Shown: piece by piece, positions 5,993 to 32,848 of the stretch
Layout of the letters: each line of letters starts with the position of its first letter
Numbering within the stretch: position 1 is the stretch's first letter
DNA from: a virus
IMG/VR virus record: IMGVR_UViG_3300037245_000471
Location: 1-34,554 of that record
Direction: 5' to 3' (one strand)
Length of the DNA: 34,554 bases
The notes under the pieces: generated by a model
The model's database searches: none
Seen by the model: the letters and a program-made list of their open reading frames with translations, nothing else
What the model was told of the DNA's origin: nothing
Program-made: the position numbers and the translations under genes

Positions 5993-6304
5993 CTACCCCT
6001 TAAAAGGAAACATCATGTTTAGTTTATCTTGTCTTTTTTTACATCCACCACAGGACTTCATCCCCACAGCGTTGGTAATCTTTGCTACAATATCGCCACC
6101 GCCACGCGCCTTGTTTAATGGTGTCCATGTTCCGCTTTTGAGCCACTTCATGTAATCGCTTAAGTACCACTTGTTGAACTTTAAAAACTCACGGATTCTT
6201 TCACGTCTTGAAATAACGCTATTGATATCTCCTGAGCCTATCAATGACATAAACTCTTCGTCTGACAAGCCCAAAGAATCGTATGTTACTTGGTTTATAT
6301 TCAT
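5993..6304 (-). CDS. Phage protein with C-terminal CGGC motif
   Basis: A 103-residue protein. I chose the ATG at 6304, which overlaps the previous stop as ATGA, over a GTG four codons earlier. It is mostly helical and basic and ends with KSCGGCKKRQDKLN, a C-terminal CGGC-KR motif found on various small phage virion-region proteins of unknown role. The conserved Cys pair could bind metal or form a disulfide. Its position between tail and fibre genes suggests a tail-assembly or connector role, but this is not shown. Confidence 0.65.
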   Translation of the reverse strand: MNINQVTYDSLGLSDEEFMSLIGSGDINSVISRRERIREFLKFNKWYLSDYMKWLKSGTWTPLNKARGGGDIVAKITNAVGMKSCGGCKKRQDKLNMMFPFKG

Positions 6305-7229: not shown

Positions 7230-9244
7230 GAAAACACCACGTAGTAAGCTACGATTAAATTGTACTCTATCCTATCACCAGACACGTCTCTTTGTTTAGC
7301 TAAAACCTCGCATTTTTGATTAGTCAGGTCTATAGCAGGAGCGTCTATAGTGATTATGTCCCCCCTTGATATCCCTTGCGTTGCGTTGCTAGAGTCGTCT
7401 GTGTCGAGAACCCTGATAGGGATAATGACCTTGTGATAAATGCCATTCTCTACCATCACAGTCGCCATGGCGTTTGCCTGGTCTTCGTCAACTATGAACC
7501 CTGTCACCACTTCATCAAGCCAGTTAACATTCACACCTTTAAACGTATCCTCCGCGTCGGTCAATGACAAGTCTTTATAGACAATTACATTCGGCGGGCT
7601 TGTAGCAGAAGGGTTATCGTTTAACGCCGTCTCTGTTGTGAATGATGCCGACTGACTAAAGGTGTCACCAGATCCATCAACGGCGATTAGCGCCACAGTC
7701 ACAGTTTTGCGAAACCCTGACGCGCTTGGTGGTGTGTACGTTACAACAAACCCTTCACTCCCAAAGCCAGAACTAAAACCGCTGCTAAACCCAGATCCTA
7801 AAGACGTGATCGTTGGAGAAACTACAATACCGTCCACCTTCAATGTTATATCATCTGAGGACAGTCCGTTGATTGTATCACCAATCTCAAAGTAGATTGA
7901 CCATGACCTTGTAACATCCCTAGCCCCACCTGATGGGCTAACGTTCGATATAAATGCGTGCCGCTCAAGCTCAGAATCATACAGTGCAAGATCAGCCTGG
8001 ACATCAATCCAACATGAGGAAAAATCGCCGCTATGTGTCTCCACATTAGAAGAAGTATCGAGGTTGAAAATATGAACGTCGGCGATTGAATCAACGTATG
8101 CGATATCTCCTGATGCTCTTTCAGCAATAGGTGAAGGCCAAACAAAAGGAACGTTACCGGATGCAAGATTAAAAGTTGAATATTCTTTTATAGAAACATC
8201 ATCAACCTCAAACGCTTCACCATCTATAGCGCCGTCTACATTACCGACATTTAGTGTAGTATTTGATACGCTTCTAGTAAAAAACCCTATATATGTTTCC
8301 TCTATGCTTGTTGGTGTTACCTCAAAATAGTCTAAGTTTTCCGTCCCGGTTATGTTCCCACCTATCCTAAATGGCACGGAAGAACCAGACCCACCACCTA
8401 CAGTCGTATTTTTAATCTTCATTGATACTAAGTAAATCTTAGTAGCCGTCAATACGTCCAGGCTTGCGGCATCAGTCCCGCCATCCCCCTTCATATATAG
8501 CTTTTCGGCAACAGTTGTATTTACATCGAACGTTCCTAGATTGGCTCCACTCCAGTTATTCGGTCCGCTCATATCTGAGTCTGTGCCGGTCGCTAATTCA
8601 CTCCCTAGAGATTCACCACGGTCATATACATCAATACCACTTGCCGTTGCGATAAAAAGACTATCAGTTAAACCATACTGAATATGGTTAACCGTATTAC
8701 TAGAGAGTGGTGGACTTGAGCTAGTTGTCAATATAAGAGCATCACCGGCCACCCAATCTGAGGATGGTATATCTAGTGTATGCAGGCCAGATGAAACCGC
8801 GTAAGAGATAGCTGTGTCGTTAACGTCACAAGCACCACAACCACCCGCGTCTGTGTATTGGAAAGGGACGCCAGGTGCAGGAAAATACTCAGCACCGGCA
8901 TCATGAGTAACGAGCAGCGAAGACCCATTGCCAGCAACATGACTTATGTTGTCACTTTGGATGAAAAACGAAGTGCCTATGGTTGCGTAATACTTCCGTA
9001 ACAAAGAGGTCAGGTTGCCGGTTCCAGGCGGTAGATGCCAAACACCACGGTCAGAAGTGCCTAACCATAAACCGTTTAAATTGAACGCCCCTGAAGTCAC
9101 GTTAGGTAATGATGCAAAGCCAGTTCTGACCCATGCCGAGTAAGTTTTTTGATATAGGTCTACACCACCTGAAGAAAAGATAGCTATCGTGCCGTTTAAT
9201 TCAGCATAGTCTTTAATGTCTGTTGATTGTGTGTCTAAAACCAT
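7226..9244 (-). CDS. Large modular tail-tip/fibre protein (propeller-like, CBM-like, Ig-like domains)
   Basis: A 672-residue protein with several modules. Residues 1-220 contain repeated blades of the type IAIFSSGGVDLYQKT and LWLGTSDRGVWHL, resembling a beta propeller. Residues about 225-355 look like a carbohydrate-binding module of the CBM4/9 sort, ending FEVDDVSIKEYS. Residues about 445-560 read as a bacterial Ig-like domain (NVSPSGGARDV, then VTYTPPSASG) interrupted by a GSGFSSGFSSGF repeat. The last 100 residues form a tail-tip-like beta domain. It follows the 813-residue tail protein and probably builds the adsorption end of the tail. Domain calls are by eye. Confidence 0.7.
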   Translation of the reverse strand: MVLDTQSTDIKDYAELNGTIAIFSSGGVDLYQKTYSAWVRTGFASLPNVTSGAFNLNGLWLGTSDRGVWHLPPGTGNLTSLLRKYYATIGTSFFIQSDNISHVAGNGSSLLVTHDAGAEYFPAPGVPFQYTDAGGCGACDVNDTAISYAVSSGLHTLDIPSSDWVAGDALILTTSSSPPLSSNTVNHIQYGLTDSLFIATASGIDVYDRGESLGSELATGTDSDMSGPNNWSGANLGTFDVNTTVAEKLYMKGDGGTDAASLDVLTATKIYLVSMKIKNTTVGGGSGSSVPFRIGGNITGTENLDYFEVTPTSIEETYIGFFTRSVSNTTLNVGNVDGAIDGEAFEVDDVSIKEYSTFNLASGNVPFVWPSPIAERASGDIAYVDSIADVHIFNLDTSSNVETHSGDFSSCWIDVQADLALYDSELERHAFISNVSPSGGARDVTRSWSIYFEIGDTINGLSSDDITLKVDGIVVSPTITSLGSGFSSGFSSGFGSEGFVVTYTPPSASGFRKTVTVALIAVDGSGDTFSQSASFTTETALNDNPSATSPPNVIVYKDLSLTDAEDTFKGVNVNWLDEVVTGFIVDEDQANAMATVMVENGIYHKVIIPIRVLDTDDSSNATQGISRGDIITIDAPAIDLTNQKCEVLAKQRDVSGDRIEYNLIVAYYVVFS

Positions 9245-25347: not shown

Positions 25348-26658
25348 TCACATCTCAAAGCGTTGAATCTCACCGTAAAATGTCATTGGTATAGTCCCTA
25401 TCGGTCCATCCTTTTGCTTGGCAATGATAAGCTCTGCTGTTCTCTCATGGCCTTTGCCACAATCGCCACCGTCACCGTTTTTCATACTCTTGCAATCTTC
25501 ACAGACAGCAGACTCTCGCCAGGGGAACATGATTATGCTTGCGTCCTGCTCTATCTGCCCACTCTGTCGAAGGTCGCTCATTGTCGGCTTCCTGGTCCCG
25601 TCATACCGCTTTAGTTGTGAGAGTGCAACCATTGTTATGCCTAACTCTTTTGCGAGTGCCAGGAGATCTTTGCTTACGGTAGTCACTGCCGAAAATTCGT
25701 CTCGCGCTTCAGGGACTCTAATAAGCTGGAGATAATCAACGACAGCAAGATTGAAATCTGGATTTTTCATCTTGTACCTGCGGAGTCTTGACTTGTACTC
25801 TCCTAGAGTTATACCGCCTTTATCGTCTATCATCAGTTCCAAGTCTGAAAACTCATGGGCACCGTTTACCAACTCTGGGAAATCTACTTGATGAAAGTTT
25901 CCTGTCCTTATCCTTGAAAGACTAACACGGGAGTAATTAGCCATGAATCTATCTACTATTTTTTGTCGTGTCGTCTCAAGGCTTGATAAATATGCGTGTT
26001 GCCCTGAGTTCTTAATCAGGTTGAGAGCGAATGCAGTCTTTCCCATGCTCGGTTGTCCTGCAACAATGATTAGATCACCAGGGCAACCACCGCCTGTCAT
26101 ATTGTCAAGTCTATCAGACCCCCACGAGAACCCGGCAAGTTTTGATTCACTGGCATATCTTTTCTCGTATACTTTCATGGCCTCCATTGATGCTTGCTTC
26201 GCCATGATGGTCGTCTGAAGTTCAACCTCAGAGAATGCTGTTAGCTTGTTATTTACAATCTCCATCGCCTCGGCATTATCACCATAAGCGGCGTCCATTA
26301 TCTCAATAGCGGTTTGTATCGTGTGCCGCTGGTCTGATTTGTCCTGCACAATTTTAGCATAGTATTTTATGTTTGCTGCTGTTGGTACATAATCAACCAG
26401 TGTGGAAAGGTAAGAAATGCCGCCAACCTCTTCAAGCCTCTCAAGCTGTTTAAGCTTCTGGCTCAAGGTTACCAAGTCGATTGGCTCATTATCGTCAAGG
26501 AGGTATTGCATGGCCTCATAAATGATTTTGTGAGGTGCACGGTAGAACACGCCAGAGTTAATGGAGATATCAAGTAGAGATTCATTCTCTAGCAGGATAG
26601 CACCAAGCACAGACATTTCAGCTTCTAGGTTTTGAGGTGGTAATCTATGCGAGTCCAA
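25348..26658 (-). CDS. dnaB: Replicative DNA helicase, DnaB family
   Basis: About 436 residues from a TTG start at 26658, which has GGGAG 7 nt upstream; the protein then begins DSHRLPPQNLEAE as normal for DnaB. Numbered from there, the N-terminal domain is 5-145, Walker A is GQPSMGKT (201-208), Walker B is VVDYLQL (Asp308) and motif H4 is SDLRQSGQIEQDA. An unusual CEDC...C...H insertion lies at 386-404, just before the last beta strands. It unwinds the fork as a hexamer. The gene overlaps the end of the winged-helix initiator/loader gene by 14 bases, so the pair should act together. Confidence 0.92.
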   Translation of the reverse strand: MDSHRLPPQNLEAEMSVLGAILLENESLLDISINSGVFYRAPHKIIYEAMQYLLDDNEPIDLVTLSQKLKQLERLEEVGGISYLSTLVDYVPTAANIKYYAKIVQDKSDQRHTIQTAIEIMDAAYGDNAEAMEIVNNKLTAFSEVELQTTIMAKQASMEAMKVYEKRYASESKLAGFSWGSDRLDNMTGGGCPGDLIIVAGQPSMGKTAFALNLIKNSGQHAYLSSLETTRQKIVDRFMANYSRVSLSRIRTGNFHQVDFPELVNGAHEFSDLELMIDDKGGITLGEYKSRLRRYKMKNPDFNLAVVDYLQLIRVPEARDEFSAVTTVSKDLLALAKELGITMVALSQLKRYDGTRKPTMSDLRQSGQIEQDASIIMFPWRESAVCEDCKSMKNGDGGDCGKGHERTAELIIAKQKDGPIGTIPMTFYGEIQRFEM

Positions 26659-27337
26659 GTTCTTTCTCCCTTGCTGCAATTTCTGCTTGACGTTCCTTGC
26701 TGATAGTCTTTAGACCTTCTGGCTCTTTCGGAATCTTACCGGCTGCGCGTTTCATCCAGTCCATCAGATTCAAGTTGAGGTCTAAAACTGGTTTTTTCCC
26801 TTGACGGTATTCGCGCCACTTCACAAACTCAAAATCATAAAGACTTCTCATCGCAGGGAAAAGCTCTAAGATTGTGTCTTTCATCCTCAAAGAAGCTTCT
26901 TCGTATTGGTCTAAGGTTTCTTTCTTTACTTCTTTTACTTCTTTTACTTCTTTAGATGTGTCCGTTCGGTGTTCGTTCGGTGTCTGTTCAGTGTTCGTTT
27001 TGGTGTCCGTTCCATTATAGTCATCGTAATTAAGTATTGTAATTAAGGTAGTTACGTTACTTTTCTGGTGTTCGATTTGGTGTTCGTTTTCGAGTTGTTT
27101 TAGGAACCTGTCAACTTTCCCCCTTGACCATCCCCAACGGTCAGCAAAGCCCTTTGTTGATATAGCAATCTGACCACGTTTAACCTCTATGACCTGGCTA
27201 CGCTTGACGAACTTTGTATCTTTAATGTTCGCGCTGATTAATAGATCAATCCAGGCATGTCCAAATGAAAAGGGCTTGTCTTGCCACATCCAATTGTCTT
27301 GGATCTTTCTGTATAATTTTAGATACCCACGTTTCAT
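26645..27337 (-). CDS. Replication initiator / helicase loader with winged helix
   Basis: A 230-residue protein. Residues 1-105 match the N-terminal winged-helix domain of phage replisome organisers: GYLKLYRKIQDNWMW, VKRGQIAISTKGFADRWGWS and RGKVDRFLKQLENE. A polar linker (about 108-140) is encoded by the iteron repeats and contains a KEV repeat. The C-terminal domain (about 145-230) is helical and probably contacts DnaB, whose gene is next. The layout (DNA-binding domain, origin in the linker-coding DNA, helicase-contact domain) mirrors lambda O plus a loader. The ATG at 27337 lacks a strong Shine-Dalgarno. Confidence 0.78.
   Translation of the reverse strand: MKRGYLKLYRKIQDNWMWQDKPFSFGHAWIDLLISANIKDTKFVKRSQVIEVKRGQIAISTKGFADRWGWSRGKVDRFLKQLENEHQIEHQKSNVTTLITILNYDDYNGTDTKTNTEQTPNEHRTDTSKEVKEVKEVKKETLDQYEEASLRMKDTILELFPAMRSLYDFEFVKWREYRQGKKPVLDLNLNLMDWMKRAAGKIPKEPEGLKTISKERQAEIAAREKELGLA
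26925..26951 (-). repeat. Three perfect 9-bp tandem repeats next to the iterons
   Basis: Three exact copies of AGAAGTAAA (minus strand) encode KEV-KEV-KEV. The block is A/T-rich and purine-only on one strand. It lies directly beside the iteron array and may be part of the unwinding region of the origin. Confidence 0.7.
26956..27088 (-). repeat. Iteron array: probable replication origin
   Basis: Five 11-bp units (consensus AACRRACACCG, minus strand) lie head to tail at 27011-26956: AACGGACACCA, AACGAACACTG, AACAGACACCG, AACGAACACCG and AACGGACACAT, with one extra base after the first. Two more copies (AACGAACACCA and TCGAACACCA) lie at 27088-27066. Between the groups is an A/T-rich segment with a repeated CTTAATTAC (27047-27039 and 27034-27026). 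Iterons at one-turn spacing inside an initiator gene, beside A/T-rich DNA, are the mark of a lambda-type origin. Confidence 0.75.
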
Positions 27338-27355
27338 TAGTTATCACTTAAACGC

Positions 27356-27399
27356 AAAAAACCCGCAACAGGGTGGGGACAGCCACTCCTGAAACGGGT
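27356..27399 (-). terminator. Leader terminator-like hairpin before the replication genes
   Basis: On the minus strand ACCCG (27399-27395), CAGG (27391-27388) and GTGG (27386-27383) pair with CCAC (27376-27373), CCTG (27372-27369) and CGGGT (27365-27361), closing a CTGTCC loop and followed by a run of six T. It lies between the promoter and the first replication gene, so it should attenuate transcription. Confidence 0.7.
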
Positions 27400-27420
27400 C
27401 TTTCTACTACTATCGTTTAT

Positions 27421-27436
27421 CGCATCTGTCCATGCG
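27421..27436 (-). promoter_or_regulatory. Leader hairpin with loop complementary to the terminator loop
   Basis: CGCAT (27436-27432), loop GGACAG (27431-27426), ATGCG (27425-27421) is a perfect 5-bp hairpin. Its six-base loop is the exact complement of the six-base loop CTGTCC (27382-27377) of the terminator hairpin downstream, so the two could form a kissing complex in RNA. Confidence 0.5.
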
Positions 27437-27456
27437 CCTACAATCAATGTTTTTAA

Positions 27457-27485
27457 AATATACATGATGCCTTTTCTGTTGTCAA
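27457..27485 (-). promoter_or_regulatory. Replication promoter
   Basis: TTGACA (27485-27480), 17-bp spacer, TATATT (27462-27457), near consensus. It gives a leader of about 110 nt carrying two hairpins before the initiator/loader ATG at 27337. Confidence 0.8.
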
Positions 27486-27512
27486 GCTTTCATGTCTTAC
27501 CTGGGGGAAGGG

Positions 27513-28436
27513 CTAGAATAGCAACTCTTGACCTTTGTCGCCAGCAACACCGTATGGGATTTCTAAGAAGTTTAGAACCTTGATTTCTTCAGGATCATTA
27601 ACAATTGATTCCCATAAATCTGGGTGTGTGTCTTTCATTAATACAAATCGTCCTGGTGACGGTTCCATGTCACAACCAAATTTACACTTATAACAACCGG
27701 TTCTGTCATAACCCATACTGTAGACAATACAGATCTTCAGATTAAATCTTTTGGTGTATTCAAGTTTATCCTTATGTGTCCAGAATGACATAGGCATAGA
27801 TTTAGGTATATCTCTGTCAAAAGCATTGCACCCTGTCCTGTTATATACCTCTTGCCTATTCTTACTATCTACGGCCATCTCTGCCGTCATAGGTACGTTC
27901 CCTGACTCCTTATGTCTCCTCTTTGCCGGTTCCTTTTTCATTACATCACAACATTTGTCGCTTATTTTAAAAGGAGCATCAATCACTCGGTGATATTTTT
28001 TAGGTATGGTGCGGGCCTGTTTTTTACCGGAAGATGGGCATGTGCCACCGTTAGCCCTCAGATCCCTTTGTTTTTCGCTCTTAGTTCCTCGGTATCGCGA
28101 GATAGCCATTGATACTTTTTTACTTATTACCGGATGGCCGTATTTCTTAATAACCTTCCGATATGACATCTTTGGTCGAATAATTACAACGTTGTCGAAT
28201 GTTTTTACAAACGCTTTAATCTCTGGGAACTCAAGCCCGGTGTCAACAAAGACAGCTGCAATGTCTGGGTACATTCCCCTCGCTATGTCTAGCAATATCG
28301 TGGAGTCCCAACCACCAGAAAAGAAGATATCAACGTTTCCCTCATAATATTCATACCATTCGCTGATCCTGCGCTGAGTAAGTATGATTTTAGCCTCAAG
28401 TGGAAGACTTTGTTTTTGAGCTAACTTCCAATTCAT
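27513..28436 (-). CDS. PP-loop protein, PAPS reductase-like
   Basis: A 307-residue protein of the phage PAPS-reductase/PP-loop family. The nucleotide loop is SGGWDST (residues 40-46), with Trp where Lys is usual (SGGKDS). VDTGLEFPEIKAF (64-76), RPKMSYRKVIKKYGHPVISKK (best seen around 87-107), a CC pair (162-163) and CYKCKFGC (248-255) follow, the Cys set probably binding an iron-sulfur cluster or metal. Relatives adenylate substrates or take part in sulfur chemistry such as DNA or tRNA thiolation; the phage substrate is unknown. AAAGGTGA precedes the ATG. It lies between NinG and the replication promoter. Confidence 0.8.
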   Translation of the reverse strand: MNWKLAQKQSLPLEAKIILTQRRISEWYEYYEGNVDIFFSGGWDSTILLDIARGMYPDIAAVFVDTGLEFPEIKAFVKTFDNVVIIRPKMSYRKVIKKYGHPVISKKVSMAISRYRGTKSEKQRDLRANGGTCPSSGKKQARTIPKKYHRVIDAPFKISDKCCDVMKKEPAKRRHKESGNVPMTAEMAVDSKNRQEVYNRTGCNAFDRDIPKSMPMSFWTHKDKLEYTKRFNLKICIVYSMGYDRTGCYKCKFGCDMEPSPGRFVLMKDTHPDLWESIVNDPEEIKVLNFLEIPYGVAGDKGQELLF

Positions 28437-32121: not shown

Positions 32122-32604
32122 CTAATCGATATGTTTCCATGCAGTTCGTGTTATTATTTTCCGTATTGCAGATTCCTGCACATCATACAACTTTGCAAGA
32201 TCTTTCGTTTTAGCACCTTCAGCGGCTCTTAATCTTATGGATACAATGTCGCCATCTTTGAACTTTGAATTATAGCAACTTTCCCCATGTGGTCGAGTCT
32301 CTTCATTGCCCCTATACCCTCTCCCCTTCGCGATCATATCGTCTGTGTTGTCTTGGTGTGTGCCAACGAATAGATGCTCAGGGTTTACGCACGGCGGGTT
32401 ATCGCATTTATGTAGAACAAGAAGATTGTCAGGGATAACACCAACGTGTATTTGATAGCTCATTCTATGGGCAAGGACTACCTTAGCGTTTACCACAAAC
32501 CTGCCATACCCATCATCAAACCGACAGGCATTCCATTCCCAGCAACCAGAGGTTACTTTGGATATCTTCTTATTGAATCTGTCTAACAATTTATCGTCGA
32601 ACAT
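32122..32604 (-). CDS. HNH endonuclease with C-terminal HTH
   Basis: A 160-residue protein. Residues about 18-90 form an HNH_3-type nuclease: CWEWNACRFDDGYGRF, then LAHRMSY, LVLHKCDNPPCVNPEHLFVG. The C-terminal half (about 115-155) has an HTH-like segment (AKTKDLAKLYDVQESAIRKI). This two-part form is typical of phage homing endonucleases that spread as free-standing genes. CGGAG precedes the ATG. It directly follows the highly structured untranslated region at 32605-32848. Confidence 0.88.
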   Translation of the reverse strand: MFDDKLLDRFNKKISKVTSGCWEWNACRFDDGYGRFVVNAKVVLAHRMSYQIHVGVIPDNLLVLHKCDNPPCVNPEHLFVGTHQDNTDDMIAKGRGYRGNEETRPHGESCYNSKFKDGDIVSIRLRAAEGAKTKDLAKLYDVQESAIRKIITRTAWKHID

Positions 32605-32848
32605 ATTCTTGCTCCGCCGGTAAGAGTGACGCTCTTTGTTCTATGTTTCCTTGTGAGCCATCCCGCCAAGTATTGACGATTTGTTTAGGTGAAACTCACG
32701 CCACCAAATAGGAAAACCCCACACGATCCTTTCGACGGGATGTGCAGGGTTTAGCGTTTGTGCGGGGTTTTCCCAAAATGATGTAAGCTAAACCGTACCC
32801 GTCGAAAAGTACACAGTTAGCTTATCACACTGGTTGTTGGTGTCAACA
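32605..32848 (-). other. 244-bp untranslated region with strong RNA structure
   Basis: There is no gene in this gap. On the minus strand it opens with TTGACA (32846-32841) and only a weak -10 (TAAGCT, 16-bp spacing), then has three long stems between 32824 and 32711, two small hairpins (GTGAgttTCAC, and AAGAGcgtcaCTCTT just before the ribosome-binding site) and the HNH start. The stems are listed separately. Confidence 0.75.
32711..32824 (-). other. Nested inverted repeats: possible RNA switch or pseudoknot
   Basis: Minus-strand RNA could form S0 (32824-32817 with 32791-32784, 8 bp, plus GTAC 32812-32809 with 32798-32795); S1 (32807-32798 with 32739-32730, 10 bp, plus 32794-32787 with 32755-32748, 8 bp); and S2 (32773-32760 with 32724-32711, 14 bp). 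S0 and S1 use the same bases and exclude each other. S1 and S2 interlock as a pseudoknot. S2 contains one G-U pair only if the minus strand is transcribed; in the plus-strand RNA it would be an A-C mismatch. Confidence 0.6.

Follow-up and report, generated by a model that had tools for sequence, protein, structure and literature searches.

A candidate kissing-loop attenuator ahead of phage replication genes

In the plasmid rep attenuators of the pT181/pIP501 type, the leader of the replication initiator gene contains a terminator that is controlled by kissing hairpin loops, and the loop sequence sets the specificity (PMC4878617). The CI RNA of phage P4 comes from the leader of the phage replication genes and causes premature termination by pairing with complementary sequences in that leader (PMC4825925). 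The same source describes IsrK of the Gifsy-1 prophage as a leader RNA whose end is set by an intrinsic terminator that some transcripts pass into the operon, and whose short form acts in trans on the long one (PMC4825925).

The locus considered here lies in a virus record of 34,554 bases, the whole of which was analysed and is referred to below as the window. Its assigned genes are nearly all on the minus strand, as is the leader in question (element 1), which is made up as follows together with the genes behind it:

27457..27485, minus strand: sigma-70-like promoter, TTGACA-17-TATATT, with 11 of 12 consensus matches
27421..27436, minus strand: hairpin 1, CGCAT-GGACAG-ATGCG, with a 5-bp stem and the loop GGACAG at 27431..27426
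27356..27401, minus strand: intrinsic terminator hairpin, GACCCGUUUCAGGAGUGG-CUGUCC-CCACCCUGUUGCGGGUU, with the loop CTGTCC at 27382..27377 and T6 at 27361..27356
26645..27337, minus strand: gene for a DnaD-like helicase loader (initiator) of 230 aa (phrog_2514, E 8.5e-31)
25348..26679, minus strand: gene for a DnaB-like replicative helicase, next in the operon (PF03796 and PF00772)

The initial annotation had placed two hairpins with perfectly complementary six-base loops between a replication promoter and the initiator gene, and had likened the second, with its T-run, to an intrinsic terminator. The minus-strand sequence and its predicted folding agree with this description. The loops are exact reverse complements over 6 nt, the complementarity ending at the loop edges; both the MFE and the centroid folds contain both hairpins, which are separated by a linker of ~20 nt; and the leader has a z of -3.5 relative to shuffles. 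The terminator alone folds at -24.9 kcal/mol (z -5.2); a simple terminator scan misses it because its stem has an internal loop and a bulge. Since a DnaD-like loader and then a DnaB helicase follow, the label ‘replication operon’ is right as well. In Markov shuffles, neighbouring hairpins with perfectly complementary 6-nt loops occur ~0.2 times per window, and never directly before a T-run. We also noted that UAAACG after hairpin 1 (27421-27415) is complementary to CGUUUA after the T-run (27361-27350), both being invariant in the relative described below; a helix enclosing the terminator could therefore form in the read-through RNA only.

Attenuation of the pT181/pIP501 type and the P4 CI RNA are closer to element 1 than are ColE1 or the HK022 put sites, with which it had originally been compared. 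Those two comparisons are valid only in principle: the search gave no antisense transcript, and the target of put is RNA polymerase, not a terminator loop of its own. The put sites form a pair of hairpins close behind an early phage promoter and affect termination; they modify RNA polymerase such that it passes distant terminators. To our knowledge, the second put hairpin is not a terminator with a loop matching the first, whereas here it is. ANTAR target RNAs resemble element 1 in their pair of 6-nt hairpin loops and in the overlap of the second hairpin with a terminator; their loops carry A1 and G4 for protein binding. Unlike these, GGACAG and CTGTCC do not each have A1 and G4 and complement each other instead.

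Element 1 has in common with the pT181/pIP501 systems that an intrinsic terminator lies in the leader ahead of the replication initiator. The kissing RNA of those plasmids is a separate countertranscript, whereas in element 1 the leader carries the partner hairpin; a consensus scan of the plus strand gave no promoter for a countertranscript near 27340-27490, and such a scan cannot exclude one. Moreover, switching in the plasmids relies on an antiterminator paired to the terminator's 5′ arm, whereas hairpin 1 of element 1 matches the apical loop only. The resemblance to P4 CI lies in a phage replication operon leader with internal complementary sequences. In P4, CI RNA has two pairing sites, one upstream of CI and one downstream, whereas here there is one, the terminator loop, and no processed RNA is known. 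IsrK differs in acting on translation of the read-through mRNA, and matched hairpin and terminator loops are not reported in the text consulted. No Rfam covariance model, any for the RNAs compared above included, matched above its gathering score, low-threshold scans giving only sub-threshold, chance-level matches. Among open-licence papers, a scope in which a subscription paper could have been missed, no description of a kissing-loop attenuator was found.

A single close relative of element 1 was found in the searched collections (L002, IMG/VR 3300037245_000461). Window and L002 have in common a module that starts shortly upstream of the promoter and runs into the N-terminal part of DnaD (78% identity, residues 1-161); the upstream gene and the helicase differ. 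Directly upstream of the replication promoter, the window has a PAPS-reductase-like gene (27513-28436) and L002 a DNA methyltransferase-like gene, a difference that makes the leader a module boundary. The promoter hexamers are kept in L002 (TTGACA/TAGATT) and much of the spacer differs. The stem of hairpin 1 is invariant, and the loops read GGCGAG/CTCGCC.

The two leaders differ by 13 substitutions in 117 nt; 9 of these are at paired positions, and pairing is preserved at all 9. Both partners have changed in two kissing pairs and in two apical-stem pairs; one further stem pair alternates between A-U and G-U. As a control, the partner was slid by 1–3 columns, which left zero two-sided changes. 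With the 13 changes placed at random, the probability that loop 2 exactly compensates the observed change in loop 1 is 7e-4, and the whole structure was intact with at least 4 loop changes in only 8 of 2 million trials. Changes are concentrated in the loops and apical stem (8 in 20 nt vs. 5 in 97 nt elsewhere in the leader; ~12-fold odds, Fisher p 1.4e-4) and, to a lesser extent, in the loops alone (4 of 12 vs. 9 of 105 elsewhere, p 0.03). The recognition surface, i.e. loops and apical stem, is the fastest-changing part of the leader, yet it still matches. We regard this compensatory change, read from the aligned leaders, as the decisive evidence that the observation is real.

The window contains another such arrangement (element 2, 32813-32714), in which the loops are complementary over 8 of 8 positions:

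32794..32813, minus strand: hairpin 1 of element 2, with the loop TTTCGACG at 32807..32800
32714..32752, minus strand: terminator-like hairpin of element 2, with the loop CGTCGAAA at 32737..32730 and T4 only after the stem
32122..32604, minus strand: gene for an HNH endonuclease downstream of element 2 (PF13392, phrog_1872)

Compared with element 1, its promoter match is weaker and its T-run shorter.

We then scanned for intrinsic terminators whose apical loop complements the loop of an upstream hairpin, starting with the loci of DnaD relatives and continuing with whole phage records and Bacteroidota prophages. Initial, looser scans that lacked a T-run anchor proved too noisy, and a T-run-anchored scan with controls took their place. 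About 20 elements were found in phages and prophages, and their sequences are mostly unrelated. Those outside the window and L002 are listed here by their loops; ‘less certain’ marks elements that were accepted by inspection on relaxed criteria and are individually less certain.

L041: loop GTCGCAG
L054: loop GTGATGG (less certain)
L056: two elements, GATTCGAG (less certain) and GTATGAG
L265: GAGATAG, a third element in the same phage as L056
L077: GTAAGAGG
L270: CCACTAC, in the same phage as L077
L129: loop GTAGCAT, at ~7512-7608 of NZ_WUQY01000003.1, a prophage region of Sphingobacterium bovisgrunnientis KCTC 52685
L177: loop GCGTGA (less certain)
L188: loop GTTACGG (less certain)
L204: loop GAGTAAG
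L221: loop AGTAAG
L222: GGGAGCGGAAC (less certain)
L228: loops ATAGGGA/TCCCTAT
L238: loops GTGGCA/TGCCAC
L335: loops GTAGAGA/TCTCTAC
L259: loop GGGCAG
L315: TCGTGGCG (less certain)

A promoter, hairpin 1, a terminator with perfectly complementary loops and an early gene occur together in elements 1 and 2 and in ~19 others, the promoter match of element 2 being weak and its T-run short. Where one phage has several elements, their loops are never shared. For 1055 distinct strong terminators at the phage and prophage loci, complementarity of at least 7 with an upstream loop was observed 12 times vs. a mean of 0.90 in 100 loop permutations (maximum 5), and a whole-loop match 11 times vs. an expected mean of 0.55 (maximum 4). 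The corresponding values for 569 terminators in a bacterial chromosome control of 752 kb are 1 vs. 0.47 and 0 vs. 0.44. Perfect whole-loop complementarity is enriched in phage terminators and not in chromosome controls.

These results bear on the explanation that element 1 is an ordinary terminator or insulator whose loop match is due to chance. Terminators between phage genes are common, and one match per window is not impossible. Nevertheless, this reading is contradicted by the covariation between the window and L002 and by the enrichment over permutations and chromosome controls, and a second match of 8 nt within the same window also speaks against it; we consider it very improbable. The loop matches could, on the other hand, be read at the level of DNA, as halves of a protein-binding inverted repeat with incidental hairpins, given that inverted repeats ~50 bp apart would be usable by a dimer or a looping repressor. 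In the simplest cases, however, the match ends at the loop edges, the stems covary too, and the sites lie inside transcribed leaders, before T-runs. In addition, one phage's elements have unrelated loops, unlike the operators of one repressor. The operator reading was rejected as highly unlikely.

A series of alleles is present at one homologous Bacteroidota-type locus, where three phages (L228, L238 and L335) have three different loop pairs, each complementary within itself. The upstream gene and promoter of L228 and L238 are 82% identical, through the TANNTTTG box, which we take to be a Bacteroidota-type promoter box. L335, with the same promoter, was brought in by a search with the upstream protein of L238, which is blind to the leader. 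Terminator flanks are partly conserved among the three. L259 has a related terminator, in which the loss of one base on each side keeps the loop match. The initial annotation had suggested that relatives be compared for compensatory loop changes, and that relatives keeping one loop without its complement would count against the pairing; in L002 and at the locus of L228, L238 and L335, both loops change and the complementarity is retained.

The promoter is usually found directly before hairpin 1. It is sigma-70-like in element 1, L002, L221, L265c and L056b, and the TANNTTTG box occupies this position in L077, L270, L177, L204, L228 and L238. The first downstream gene in most cases encodes a DnaD-type loader, with or without a small ORF ahead of it; that of L265c is likely of the RecT type, as judged by eye. 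In four cases (element 2, L188, L228 and L270) endonuclease genes lie downstream. These are free-standing homing-type genes (HNH_3, NUMOD4-HNH or GIY-YIG) directly behind the elements, at 32122-32604 in the window, 4663-5037 in L188, 1928-2443 in L228 and 12367-12987 in L270. The NUMOD4/HNH gene of L228 is inserted between the leader and DnaD. Relatives of L188 lack the entire promoter-element-HNH cassette; thus the unit can travel, and no covariation is obtainable from L188.

Approximately 10 of 215 distinct DnaD upstream regions carry a kissing-loop element. It is absent from the distant DnaD phages Vibrio 1.064.O, SL25 and Shewanella 3/49, and is therefore not essential to DnaD replication. 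Distant DnaD phages of Vibrio, Pseudoalteromonas, Shewanella and Anoxybacillus have a short gap without an element, and whole or near-whole records of four yielded none that was convincing. In L012-L017 (Vibrio, Pseudoalteromonas and Shewanella phages) the ~50-nt gap before DnaD holds an A-run and then a hairpin, terminator-like in the opposite direction. Searches of annotated phages and plasmids with the leader DNA returned no matches, and stem-pattern searches of viral and genome contigs returned L002 only, or nothing. Several candidates were set aside: as chance or coding-region matches, L257 (near-identical L255 does not keep its match), L070/L072, L095/L116, L209 and L325; and a Chlorobiaceae group (CCTTTT/AAAAGG; L297, L322 and relatives), in which the loops are invariant. 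L337 matched the promoter pattern and carries no element.

Taken together, selection of the loops to pair is well supported by these comparisons. We are quite confident that the pairing is functional and bears on termination, and the element is probably a promoter-proximal attenuator whose key contact is the kissing of an upstream hairpin with the apical loop of an intrinsic terminator on the leader RNA. The earlier proposal that the pairing may alter termination, or that a second RNA may bind, is plausible. The kiss cannot be a classical competing antiterminator because its target is the apical loop, which is exposed in the finished hairpin, and not the 5′ arm. In most elements the kissing duplex is worth -4 to -10 kcal/mol, against -13 to -29 for the much stronger terminator stems, and hence pairing cannot thermodynamically prevent the terminator. 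For both of these reasons a classical antiterminator/terminator switch does not apply.

In such an attenuator, the strong terminator would end most transcripts and so yield a short, stable RNA composed of hairpin 1 and the terminator, and a minority would read through into the replication genes. Acting in cis, hairpin 1 would touch the terminator loop after the loop exits RNA polymerase and before the 3′ arm is made, and this contact could change the timing or shape of termination and so tune read-through. The element might be a folding device of this kind with no trans function at all: hairpin 1 would capture the emerging terminator loop and delay completion of the hairpin, or a bulky kissed structure would form in the exit channel of the polymerase, with fixed or factor-dependent read-through. 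This account is possible, though we would not favour it outright. The hairpins are always near each other on one transcript (linker mostly 14–40 nt, loop-to-loop distance ~50–70 nt), and a rough estimate suggests that the majority of linkers are long enough for the coaxial stack. There is also a polarity: hairpin 1 precedes the terminator in every element, and in 19 of 21 its loop segment is richer in G than in C, with the reverse once (sign test p 4e-5; background hairpin loops, 65:44). This unplanned observation lends support to the set, on a list that was curated after the scan and is partly dependent (element 1/L002; L228/L238/L335/L259 related). On the other hand, loops and apical stem change fastest, and one homologous locus shows complete replacement of the loops; a purely internal contact needs neither.

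Acting in trans, terminated leader RNA, its loops still exposed, would kiss the nascent leader, and the concentration of this RNA would reflect how many phage genomes are present, providing feedback or immunity with a specificity encoded in the loops. The fast, concerted evolution of the loops seems to favour a specificity function. By analogy, such change, together with several non-matching elements per phage, is as expected of plasmid antisense loops or phage immunity and would point to trans action. Our slight preference is for a contribution in trans, since no part changes faster than the loops and yet they always match; overall, opinion is evenly balanced on whether the action is in trans rather than purely in cis.

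A specific form of trans action is RNA immunity or copy-number control, in which the terminated leader RNA (or hairpin 1) would bind nascent leaders of its own kind and force termination as P4 CI RNA does, the loop type being the immunity group. We hold this only tentatively. It would account for the concerted loop switching between otherwise similar phages and for the unshared loops of one phage's elements; the control point is the replication operon, and P4 provides a precedent (PMC4825925). However, a leader carrying both loops can satisfy itself in cis, and no lysogeny genes were identified within the window. More doubtful is a general scheme in which each early operon would have a self-matched loop pair with its terminated leader as trans regulator, and in which the pairs would diversify like immunity or incompatibility determinants, making related phages mutually insensitive with feedback on their own replication kept.

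The element has the look of an RNA switch that is widespread and has so far gone undescribed. If pairing controls read-through, phages of different bacterial groups would share, or have converged on, a switch for replication and homing-endonuclease genes that needs no protein. Sequence-based RNA surveys would tend to miss it because stems and loops change and only the two-loop relation persists. Its recognition code would be simple (6–8 nt, two loops), and it could offer a basis for RNA-level phage immunity as well as a ready supply of orthogonal attenuators.

Some additional features were seen at or near these leaders. A small middle hairpin with a GGCC or GCCC stem lies between the kissing hairpins in L056 (1405-1430 and 865-880) and L221 (4730-4745). 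On the minus strand of L135 (Melainabacteria MAG), at ~6060-6290, two nearby terminator-like hairpins agree in their stem letters, AAAACCCAC...GTGGGTTTT, and have loops that are inverted, TCTGATG/CATCAGA; this inverse repeat is a different arrangement from the kissing-loop element and was set aside. The DnaD gene of the window holds ~5 copies of tandem GTGTCCGTTCG-like 11-bp repeats (26958-27012 and 27066-27090), and similar tandem repeats are present in or before the DnaD gene of L228 and L238; the 11-bp repeats inside the initiator gene are likely an iteron origin. Finally, the terminator of element 2 has a competing 5′ arm that is better matched and further upstream (~32771..32759), such that at 32774-32711 one 3′ arm, GTGTGGGGTTTT, faces two alternative 5′ arms, AAAACCCCGCACA and AAACCCTGCACA, in what looks from its sequence like a built-in fold switch.
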